Source: Bacteroidota bacterium (GTDB lineage Bacteria; Bacteroidota; Ignavibacteria; Ignavibacteriales; Ignavibacteriaceae). Taken from it: a DNA stretch of 64,000 nt. The position numbers and the translations under genes were made by a program. The notes beneath the pieces were generated by a model. The model ran no database searches. It saw only the letters and a program-made list of their open reading frames with translations, and was not told the DNA's origin. Shown here in pieces: positions 42,336 through 45,912 of this stretch. Each line of letters starts with the position of its first letter. Positions within the stretch are counted from its first letter, which is position 1. Location: positions 1-64,000 of the forward strand of contig JAKAKL010000045.1 of the NCBI GenBank assembly GCA_021824565.1, read 5' to 3'.

Positions 42336-43799
42336 ATGTCAGCTAATGTTATAGATGGTTTGGAGCCGAAACTTCTCTGGAAATATTTTTATGAGATCGC
42401 GCAGGTTCCGCGTCCTTCAAAAAAAGAAGGAAAGATTATCGAGCATATAAAAAAGTTTGCCGAGCAAAGAAATCTGAAATATAAAGTCGATAAGGTTGGG
42501 AATATTCTCATTTCAATTCCGGCGTCGAAAGGATTAGAAAAATCCGCAGCGGTAGTATTGCAGGGACACATCGACATGGTCTGCGAAAAGAACAAAGGCA
42601 CGCAGCATGATTTCGACAACGACCCGATCAAGCTGATCAAAGAAGAAGGCTGGATTACAGCGGATGGAACAACACTCGGAAGCGATAACGGAATCGGCGT
42701 TGCGGCGGCGCTGGCAGCGGGTACCGACGAAACAATGCAGCATGGACCGCTTGAAATTCTACTTACGATAGATGAAGAAACCGGTCTAACGGGAGCGAAC
42801 AATCTTCAGCCGGGATTCATCACGGGAAAAGTTTTGCTGAATCTTGACTCGGAAGAAGACGGCGCATTTTACGTAGGATGCTCCGGCGGAATAGATACTC
42901 AAGGCGTTTTTAACATCAACTGGCAGAACGCTCCCGAAAATAAAGTTCCTTACGAAATATTAATTACCGGACTTAAAGGAGGGCACTCCGGCTTAGATAT
43001 TAATACCGGACGCGCCAACGCGATAAAATTATTAGCAAGATCACTAAAAGCTCTTGAAGGATTTGACTACAGCATCGCACGAATCGACGGCGGCAGCAAG
43101 AGAAACGCAATCCCACGCGAAGCAGAAGCGATCATCTTTATAAATCCTGCGGACGAGAAAAATATTTCACAAACACTTGAAAATTCAAAGAAAGATTTTC
43201 TTAACGAGTTTAATAAATCCGACAGTAAGCTGAATATTGAATTCCGCAAAGCAGAATCAAACAGTAAAAAAATTTTCAGCGGCGACTTCAAAGAAAAAAT
43301 CATAACCACGCTATTAGCGCTGCCGCACGGTGTTATCGCAATGAGCCAGGATATTCCCGATCTTGTAGAAACATCAACAAACGTTGCAACCATAACGACA
43401 GGCGATAACGAGCTTGTTATCGGCACGAGCCAGAGAAGCTCGATCGACAGCGCAAAGAAATACATCGCGGAAAGCGTAAGCTCAACTTTATCTTTAGCAG
43501 GAGCAAGAGTAAGCGGCAGCGACGGCTATCCCGGATGGAAGCCGAACCTTAATTCAAATGTTTTAAAAGTCTCTAAGAATGTTTTTGAAAAACTGTTCGC
43601 GAAGAAGCCGGAAATAAAAGCCATACACGCGGGGCTTGAGTGCGGAATATTAGGCGATAAGTTCCCGGGGCTTGATATGGTTTCATTCGGACCGACAATA
43701 GAAGGCGCGCATTCGCCCGATGAAAGAGTAAACATCGAAACGGTCGGAAAGTTTTATAATCTTCTGAAGCAAATATTGAAAGAGCTTTCAGCAAATTGA
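42336..43799 (+). CDS. pepD: Aminoacyl-histidine dipeptidase (PepD/M20 family)
   Basis: This 487-residue zinc dipeptidase belongs to the M20C group. Metal-site motifs are VLQGHIDMVCEKN (His and the following Asp), SDNGIGVAAALA (bridging Asp), TIDEETGLTGA (catalytic Glu pair), LNLDSEEDG (Asp) and GAHSPDER (final His). GLKGGHSGLDINTGRANAIK is the start of the lid domain, and HAGLECGIL is typical for the family. AGGAGGAAAA precedes the ATG. It is followed by a strong terminator. Confidence 0.97.
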   Translation: MSANVIDGLEPKLLWKYFYEIAQVPRPSKKEGKIIEHIKKFAEQRNLKYKVDKVGNILISIPASKGLEKSAAVVLQGHIDMVCEKNKGTQHDFDNDPIKLIKEEGWITADGTTLGSDNGIGVAAALAAGTDETMQHGPLEILLTIDEETGLTGANNLQPGFITGKVLLNLDSEEDGAFYVGCSGGIDTQGVFNINWQNAPENKVPYEILITGLKGGHSGLDINTGRANAIKLLARSLKALEGFDYSIARIDGGSKRNAIPREAEAIIFINPADEKNISQTLENSKKDFLNEFNKSDSKLNIEFRKAESNSKKIFSGDFKEKIITTLLALPHGVIAMSQDIPDLVETSTNVATITTGDNELVIGTSQRSSIDSAKKYIAESVSSTLSLAGARVSGSDGYPGWKPNLNSNVLKVSKNVFEKLFAKKPEIKAIHAGLECGILGDKFPGLDMVSFGPTIEGAHSPDERVNIETVGKFYNLLKQILKELSAN

Positions 43800-43974: not shown

Positions 43975-44583
43975 AACTTAGAAACCCGGATCAGAGTATT
44001 AGAAACTGAAATGAAGTTCTTAATTGTGATGAGCAGTTACTTAGAAACTCAGAAACTCTTCTTAGAAAGTCTGACCGGCTTCTTAGAAACACAAAACCTC
44101 TTCTTAGATGTGATGAGCAGTCACTTAGAAACACGGAAGCTCTTCTTAGAAACTCTGACCGGCTTCTTAGAAACATAGAACCTCTTCTTAGATGTGATGA
44201 GTAGTCACTTAGAAACACAGAACTTCTTCTTAGAAACTCTGACCGGCTTCTTAGAAACATAGAACCTCTTCTTAGATGTGATGAGCTGTCACTTAGAAAC
44301 ACGGAAGCTCTTCTTAGAAACTCTGACCAGCTTCTTAGAAACACAAAATCTCTTCTTAGATGTGACGAGTAGTCACTTAGAAACTCAGAAGCTCTTCTTA
44401 GAAACTCTGACCGGCTTCTTAGAAACACAAAACCTCTTCTTAGATGTGATGAGCTATCACTTAGAAACACAGAACTTCTTCTTAGAAACTCTAACCGGCT
44501 TCTTAGAAACATAGAACCTCTTCTTAGATGTGATGATCTGTCACTTAGAAACACAGAACTTCTTCTTAGATGTGATGAATGGG
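43975..44583. repeat. Minisatellite: 29 x 21-bp units in an 84-bp higher-order repeat
   Basis: The array counts out as 29 consecutive 21-bp units (609 bp) without a single insertion or deletion. Most units begin TTCTTAGAAAC, TTCTTAGATGTG or CACTTAGAAAC. In the centre four unit types follow in fixed order, giving an 84-bp higher-order period: the GATGTG landmark recurs at 44107, 44191, 44275, 44359, 44443 and 44527. The outer units at the left are degenerate, and the last copy is cut short. Because 21 is a multiple of 3, open frames arise on both strands. The minus strand gives a run of about 187 codons (Ser/Arg/Leu heptads). The plus strand gives FLETQNL-type heptads, broken by TAG at 44176, 44260 and 44512. 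I treat it as a DNA repeat; see findings. Confidence 0.92.
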
Positions 44584-44612
44584 ATTAGCTAAATTGTGGA
44601 AAGGATCTGCAA

Positions 44613-44650
44613 AGTGCCGGGAAGATTCTGCGGAGCGCAGAGTGACATCT
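44613..44650. repeat. REP-like intergenic palindromic element
   Basis: Read on the minus strand the segment is GATGTCACTCTGCGCTCCGC followed by AGAATCTTCCC. It has a small palindrome, CTGCG-GAG-CGCAG (44628-44640). This matches the general form of the widespread intergenic repeat GTCATTCTGAGCGAAGCGAA that I know from many genomes of this group. A genome search would be needed to show copy number. Confidence 0.45.
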
Positions 44651-44672
44651 GTTAAGTTTAGCTAAAATTATT

Positions 44673-44695
44673 CTGTCATGGAATGGACATGACAG
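44673..44695. repeat. Short hairpin element, copy A
   Basis: CTGTCATG and CATGACAG pair around a 7-nt loop (GAATGGA). The flank GCC..GAGAAAA on the right is shared with a second copy at 45102, which makes these two a related pair rather than independent chance palindromes. Confidence 0.55.
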
Positions 44696-44712: not shown

Positions 44713-44755
44713 AGAGATTACATCTCTTGAAGAGATGTAATCTCTTTCTTTTTCC
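44713..44755 (+). terminator. Terminator-like hairpin with no upstream gene
   Basis: AGAGATTACATCTCT (44713-44727) and AGAGATGTAATCTCT (44731-44745) form a perfect 15-bp stem with a 3-nt loop, followed by TTCTTTTT. It has the shape of an efficient plus-strand terminator, yet the nearest plus-strand gene ends 900 bp earlier and already has its own terminator. A short untranslated RNA ending here is possible. Confidence 0.6.
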
Positions 44756-44856
44756 AGGATGTTTACCATCTTAAGTGGTTAGAAAATATTTTATTTACCG
44801 CTTATAATAAGTAGAGAGTAAAATAAATTGTACAGAGGGTTGAATTATTGAAAACC

Positions 44857-44905
44857 TTAAGATGACATCCCGAATGCTTTCGAAAAAGATGTCATCTTAA
44901 AAAAG
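44857..44905. repeat. Perfect 13-bp inverted repeat
   Basis: TTAAGATGACATC (44857-44869) and GATGTCATCTTAA (44888-44900) are exact complements around an 18-nt loop and are followed by AAAAAG. It could be a bidirectional hairpin or a remnant of an inserted palindromic repeat; there is no gene next to it. Confidence 0.55.
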
Positions 44906-45101
44906 CATAAAGAGTAAAAAAAAATAATTATTGAGGGAAAGCTTTTTGGTACATGCAGCGGGAAATAAAAAAGACAGAAAAGAAAATCTTGTTTGGATTA
45001 TCAGGGCACGGAACTCGGCAGACCGGCACTCAAGTCTTAGAGCAAATCAAATTAATAATTATTTCCCGGCATCATGGCATATAGAATTACAGAAGAAATT
45101 A

Positions 45102-45125
45102 CTGTCACGGATTGGTCGGTGACAG
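45102..45125. repeat. Short hairpin element, copy B
   Basis: CTGTCAC and GTGACAG pair around GGATTGGTCG, followed by CC and then an AGGGAAAA flank. It resembles copy A at 44673: the same stem ends CTGTCA/TGACAG, a GGAWTGG loop, and a GCC..G.GAAAA flank. Confidence 0.55.
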
Positions 45126-45186
45126 CCAGGGAAAAGATTTTCATCCGACGGGTTTTGTGAAACGACGAGCCGCCCTAAAATACGGC

Positions 45187-45912
45187 TTAGTGTACAAGCG
45201 GCGGCGCCAAAGTTCCGTCCGACCATTTACCAACCCAGACCATGAAAACAGTCGTGTGCATTTGACTGTCATACGCGGCTATAACCGGTGAGCCTTTCAG
45301 ATTAGCCCCCCAGTTCTCTTCAACCTTACCGGGGCTATAGAACATTAAATGCGGATGCCAGCTCTTGCCTTGATCGTTTAAGTACTGCTGTTTCGACATC
45401 ATGTAGCTCATTGCTCCGGGTGCAATAGGAAGCAGCTTTTTCATTTCAAATGCCGACGCAATCGTCTCAGCAATTTCTGTCTTCGATTTACCTGCCAGCA
45501 CCAGTTTGGCTTTCATTATGTCAAAAGGTAAATAAGTTTTTGCAGCCTGCGGATTATAACAAATAGGCGCGCGCATTTTAGGATTCCAGAATTGAGGGTT
45601 ATCGCTTGGTACCGTCCATGAACGTTCAACTATGCAGACAAAGCCGTTAGACCCTTTAACCGCTACCGTGTAACCTTTGCGTCCTAAAACCATCACCTCA
45701 GCTTTGCCGGAAACGGACGGCGGAGCCGCGCTGCGGGCGAGAGCAATTTCTTCAGACTTATCTTTTATCAGGTACTGATCGAGTGGCGCCATAACAGGAT
45801 AGGAAGTTTTTCCTTCTTGTGTCTGTGCAGAGCAAACAGCGAAAGCTGACATAAACTGAATAAATAAAATTAAAGCAACCATACCGCCGTTACTTAACAT
45901 CTTGTTTTTCAT
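45187..45912 (-). CDS. Secreted protein of unknown function
   Basis: This 241-residue protein has a signal peptide (hydrophobic core about 11-27, cleavage near VCSAQ). The mature part has no family motif I can name. It contains EIALARSAAPPSVSGKAEVMVLGRKGYTVAVKGSNGFVCIVERSW (a small beta domain), AAKTYLPFDIMKAKLVLAGKSKTEIAETIASAF, LPIAPGAMSYMMSKQQYLNDQGKSWHPHLMFYSPG, and a C-terminal MHTTVFMVWVGKWSDGTLAPPLVH. The WHPHLMFY and hydrophobic strands suggest a compact periplasmic enzyme or binding fold. GAGGTCAAA precedes the ATG. It has no operon partner. Confidence 0.8.
   Translation of the reverse strand: MKNKMLSNGGMVALILFIQFMSAFAVCSAQTQEGKTSYPVMAPLDQYLIKDKSEEIALARSAAPPSVSGKAEVMVLGRKGYTVAVKGSNGFVCIVERSWTVPSDNPQFWNPKMRAPICYNPQAAKTYLPFDIMKAKLVLAGKSKTEIAETIASAFEMKKLLPIAPGAMSYMMSKQQYLNDQGKSWHPHLMFYSPGKVEENWGANLKGSPVIAAYDSQMHTTVFMVWVGKWSDGTLAPPLVH

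Follow-up and report, generated by a model that had tools for sequence, protein, structure and literature searches.

An intergenic 21-bp satellite array in an Ignavibacteriales genome rich in tandem periods divisible by 21

The array studied here lies between the gene of a PepD-like M20 peptidase and a convergent gene, in a window (the whole stretch of DNA that was analyzed) of 64,000 nucleotides. The features of this region are the following.

42336-43799, forward strand: left neighbor, M20 peptidase, PepD-like (Peptidase_M20, M20_dimer).
43975-44583, no strand assigned: 21-bp tandem array of 29 units, organized from 44017 into higher-order blocks of 84 bp; nearly all units contain the core CTTAGA / TTCTTAGAA.
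44584-44666, no strand assigned: degenerate units prolonging the 21-bp step of the array, with ATCTGC, TTCTGC, and ATCTGT at 44605, 44626, and 44647.
44585-44665, no strand assigned: short complementary arms TTAGCTAA (44585-44592 and 44658-44665) around the degenerate part; weak, two copies only.
44673-44695, forward strand: REP-like hairpin CTGTCATG-gaatgga-CATGACAG, bordering the array on its right; family also found beside arrays at C132, C142, and C5.
44714-44747, no strand assigned: inverted repeat GAGATTACATCTC-ttgaa-GAGATGTAATCTC with a T run, terminator-like.
44771-45138, forward strand: part of a separate dispersed repeat with at least six other genomic places.
45102-45125, forward strand: second REP-like hairpin CTGTCACGGATTGGTCGGTGACAG.
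45187-45912, reverse strand: right neighbor, 241-aa protein with a signal-like start and no Pfam match, convergent.

Cutting every 21 bp from position 43975 splits 43975-44583 into 29 in-phase 21-mers with zero indels, and Tandem Repeats Finder reports a match at 44017-44570 (period 84, 6.6 copies, 91% match, 0% indel, score 884), in agreement with the sequence-only reading, which had described 29 units of 21 bp without an indel. TTA is invariant across the 29 units and CTTAGA nearly so. Mean identity between units is 0.87 four apart, 0.67 two apart, and 0.54 one apart; this pattern and the period of 84 bear out an 84-bp amplification on top of an older 21-bp repeat, as had been proposed. The six full 84-bp blocks differ pairwise by 4 to 12 bases, and the four unit types are 4 to 13 of 21 bases apart. 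These types were said to follow one another in fixed order, which holds from 44017, whereas the first two units and the last one fall outside the cycle. The array does not stop at 44583 as first described: weaker in-phase units start at 44584, 44605, 44626, and 44647, and the repeat fades out near 44666. With 29 units and 0% indel, it is a satellite or minisatellite in the sense of at least four tandem repeats of 10 to 200 nt and regular length.

Searching the genome for the unit, a check that had been suggested for the array, returned one clearly related place, on contig C132 (78% over 134 bp), which is the only other significant copy. In that copy, units of the same 21-bp family give way to a second array, with 42-bp units, after which comes the same REP-like hairpin; the degenerate part at 44584-44666 corresponds to about one unit of this 42-bp array. 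The arms of the C132 copy read CAACTAA/TTAGTTA, i.e., their sequence changed with complementarity kept, and two copies are too few for a conserved arm structure to be claimed. Copies of the dispersed repeat at 44771-45138 occur on C71, C15, C18, C105 (69293), C43, and C97 with 76 to 90% identity, several of them near a contig end. No array was found near the pepD orthologs of 12 congeners, and the pepD of the nearest genome, 78% identical, is likewise free of one. As far as sampled, the array at 43975 is private to the species.

The period of this array is shared by many others in the same genome. We analyzed 480 kb of own-genome sequence not selected for repeats, or 544 kb with the 64-kb window added. 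In the latter, autocorrelation detected 10 periodic regions at lag 21, 13 at 42, 6 at 63, 9 at 84, and 5 at 105, versus at most one at each of the remaining lags from 7 to 109. After shuffling, the 480-kb sample yielded 0 periodic regions at lags 8 to 109, which excludes chance as the origin of the periodic arrays. Among Tandem Repeats Finder arrays scoring at least 100, 11 of 13 have a period of 21k (one period of 83 counted as 84-1); among own arrays with at least three copies, the period is divisible by 21 in 7 of 10. Two-copy duplications are only mildly enriched for 21 (13/52 versus 9/101 elsewhere), and the remaining intergenic DNA gives at most a weak hint of a 21-bp "ghost" periodicity. 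Over all own stretches examined we counted 24 arrays. By an automatic test, 23 of these are located between ORFs; L089 is the one exception, and only because of a spurious ORF. Across the 24 arrays, G+C content ranges from 0.13 to 0.56, the flanking genes occur in every orientation combination, and the unit sequences are mostly unrelated from locus to locus. L096 has a period of 42 with unrelated halves (lag-21 identity 0.18), and the lock is therefore not solely inherited from a 21-bp ancestor. Extrapolation from ten or eleven arrays per 480 kb gives probably about 100 such arrays in the 4.6-Mb genome.

Several loci bear on the spread of these arrays and on the assembly. A single 42-bp array family is found at C20:191.9 kb (L101) and C20:261.2 kb (L104), 70 kb apart, with a gapless 91% match over 414 bp; one of the two copies is truncated on the right. 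This is an instance of array dispersal. Near-identical 21/42-bp arrays sit at contig ends (start of C33 and end of C41; start of C96 and end of C142), so that arrays probably break the assembly and real copy numbers may be larger. Fragmentation of the assembly (148 contigs) and the fact that the relatives are metagenome bins likewise leave the exact copy number of the array at 43975 insecure. The occurrence of the 21-bp rule at many loci and in other assemblies nonetheless argues against an assembly artifact. Viral contigs, searched with a single exact pattern, and plasmids gave no match.

Since 21 bp equal seven codons, the arrays might be decayed or new genes of heptapeptide-repeat (coiled-coil) proteins, an origin that the sequence-only reading had entertained. 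Its observations on reading frames were accurate: an unbroken minus-strand frame of 187 codons spans 43991-44554, and one plus-strand frame is interrupted by three TAG stops. Open frames of 110 to 188 codons cross some of the arrays. However, chance alone predicts an open minus frame: with a length divisible by three, a single stop-free unit suffices to leave the frame open through the whole array. Variation shows no 3-base periodicity in the window array (p = 0.55), nor any codon-position periodicity in the 24 arrays combined (p = 0.87), at least 8 of which are devoid of any stop-free frame. Protein family searches returned sub-threshold matches only, the codon multiples 15, 18, 24, and 27 are missing among own arrays of at least three copies, and the lack of a counterpart array at orthologous loci is further evidence against a coding origin. 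A coding origin of the arrays is thus highly improbable. Of all the arrays, L079 (4070-4636, reverse strand) is the best candidate for a genuine gene: its 188-codon frame encodes heptapeptide repeats (QRxFxxx) and reaches 33 to 39 codons past the array on each side. The alternative of a DNA or RNA structural element fared unevenly. Its RNA part was not borne out, since the array folds no better than shuffles on either strand (z of 1.2 and 0.1), and no Rfam family matched the array at gathering score; a DNA element stays the live option. A CRISPR array was rejected because the variable units are contiguous and lack spacers. Collectively, the array at 43975 is very probably a 21-bp-locked non-coding intergenic satellite.

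Phase is preserved within the arrays. When 31 arrays were each aligned to their consensus, gaps being permitted, they showed 1663 mismatches and 3 indels. The corresponding figures for dispersed non-array repeats of this genome are 148 mismatches and 6 gap openings, a contrast inflated by detection that favors ungapped arrays and by repeated counting of inherited substitutions. In two array families, copies at different loci are gapless in their best alignments, and diverged edge units still keep the 21-bp step. Conserved positions are clustered inside units (p 5e-5). Unit palindromicity exceeds that of column-permuted controls (Stouffer z of 5.4 for 34 arrays; p of 0.01 for the window array), with palindromic cores in about a third of the arrays only. 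Clustered conservation and raised palindromicity would fit protein-contacted sites, as judged from unit sequences. Phased bent DNA (A-tracts) was rejected, as neither A/T nor AA/TT content of the arrays revealed a 10.5-bp harmonic. A universal CTNAG motif every 21 bp was rejected as well: it scores 69 matches versus 1 for the control here, yet the reversed control GANTC also scores in relatives, and no randomly sampled array among those inspected is built on CTNAG, which therefore marks some arrays only. No motif common to all arrays was found.

Arrays of this kind might also be ordinary slippage minisatellites in which 21 is over-represented by chance and because the units arose from heptamers (3 x 7). 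Heptamer arrays do occur in a genome of the family (G018), and one own array, at L104:15370, has heptamer-built units. In nearly all own arrays, lag-7 identity nevertheless stays close to background, and periods of 14, 28, or 35 bp do not go beyond one region each, which renders this origin very unlikely.

The REP-like hairpins point to a different type of spread, in which arrays would belong to mobile elements of REP/RAYT or MITE-like type disseminated by a Y1 transposase, with the 21-bp period as a by-product. The hairpin CTGTCACGGAnTGGTCCGTGACAG was found at about 20 genomic places, versus 0 for controls, and in about ten loci; several of these hairpins flank a Y1 transposase gene. In G000:C79:2042-3158 (L050, L079), REP-like hairpins lie on both sides of such a gene (187 aa, PF01797, 28.9 bits), and this cluster is a candidate for a REP/RAYT system within the Ignavibacteriales. 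Consistently with mobility, a REP-like hairpin borders four arrays (window, C132, C142, and C5), the C79 transposase is flanked by the same hairpins, and two array families are each present at several loci. On the other hand, the 21-bp array itself lacks the palindrome, most arrays have no hairpin, so that none is universal beside them, and unit sequences vary by locus, unlike those of a MITE family. We regard this explanation of the period as unlikely. For the window array, a BrickBuilt-like MITE was rejected, since one other significant copy only was found and inverted-repeat ends of a whole element were not.

The nearest named relatives place the genome in the Ignavibacteriales, and the 21-bp rule extends to some relatives. 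It was also observed in G001 and G012, of the same genus, and in G019, of another genus in the family, where arrays have other unit sequences and are intergenic, except for the G019 array L208, which overlaps an ORF. Periods divisible by 21 make up 7 of the 11 arrays of at least three copies in these three genomes; with the own genome included, the figures are 14/21 versus 0/19 in the others. Samples of the other relatives, as well as 460 kb surrounding 80 named pepD loci, showed no sign of the rule. Y1 transposases are encoded by 33 of 37 relatives, arrays present or absent, and being nearly universal, they do not explain the 21-bp trait. In contig C17 of G001 (L216:9126-11949), several regions of period 64 to 67 bp with CRISPR-like spacing adjoin a 21-bp array.

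This patchy presence fits the gain or loss of a gene, as would be expected if a dedicated enzyme (a template-switching polymerase, an HUH nuclease, or a reverse transcriptase) copied DNA in 21-nt steps, placing the ruler in the making of arrays rather than in their retention. A period independent of sequence and composition and the 42-mer with unrelated halves also speak for such an enzyme. However, two-copy repeats are just mildly enriched for 21, the Y1 transposases are found irrespective of arrays, and no enzyme correlated with the trait. We regard an enzymatic ruler as rather unlikely.

The mild enrichment of two-copy duplications suggests that the lock acts on expansion or retention and not on the first duplication. 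No integer number of bases below 21 (2 x 10.5 bp) gives whole turns of B-DNA, and thus only multiples of 21 hold the units on the same helix face over a long array. We infer that slippage or unequal exchange between copies would grow the arrays, and that only repeats of whole helical turns, which do not drift, would be expanded or kept. Most likely, a putative DNA-binding or recombination protein would engage every unit from the same helix face; none was found as a candidate. Helical phase as the cause of the lock is tentative. It is weakened by the lack of any sign of phased bending, by a first duplication step that is not strongly measured, by the absence of a shared motif, and by the fact that 21 also equals three heptamers. 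Taken as a whole, the array is probably a non-coding satellite with a period held to whole pairs of helical turns, plausibly through the expansion or retention of in-phase repeats alone. That some Ignavibacteriales possess a system that builds or keeps intergenic satellites in exact two-turn steps, helix-phased and independent of sequence, is a bolder and rather speculative proposal.

The period of a tandem repeat is normally viewed as a historical accident or as set by codons. Unrelated non-coding arrays with one whole-turn period point to repeat expansion being constrained, either physically or by a protein. Tandem arrays in step with helix turns hint at a process that keeps the period at 21 or its multiples. 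The long-standing question of which repeats grow thereby becomes open to direct test, and the uneven distribution of the trait across relatives provides a route to the responsible gene.

Eukaryotic alpha-satellite arrays consist of monomers and higher-order repeats, homogenized in the middle of the array and with diverged monomers at the edges. The window array is likewise made of monomers, centrally homogenized higher-order repeats, and diverged edges, but is far smaller, has a 21-bp monomer, and shares its bacterial genome with many unrelated families. Bacterial intergenic satellites are already known. In prokaryotes, they have units of 10 to 200 bp and are scattered and often unique in sequence, with a few bacteria exceeding 4 per Mb, according to the parts consulted of a survey (Subirana & Messeguer 2019, PMC6749651) that attributes multiples of 3 to coding. 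The own arrays are similarly tandem, scattered, and often unique in their units. Unlike in our case, those parts of the survey report no genome with unrelated intergenic arrays of one period, and "21 nt," "helical," and "Bacteroidetes" do not appear in the survey's text. Neither unrelated intergenic arrays of one common period nor the 21-bp lock was found reported in the open-licence literature. BrickBuilt of the distant relative Porphyromonas gingivalis is a 23-nt minisatellite within a MITE, a single family of 19 copies with a defined leader and tail (PMC4596501). It resembles the arrays described here in combining an intergenic short-unit array with an inverted-repeat tail at multiple loci, whereas the own arrays have 21-bp units of unrelated sequence and mostly no tail. 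Finally, the short palindromes CTGTCACGGAnTGGTCCGTGACAG, some of which flank a Y1 transposase gene on both sides, are like those of REP/RAYT systems (PMC3733652), but here the palindrome is the neighbor of four arrays and lies outside the 21-bp unit.
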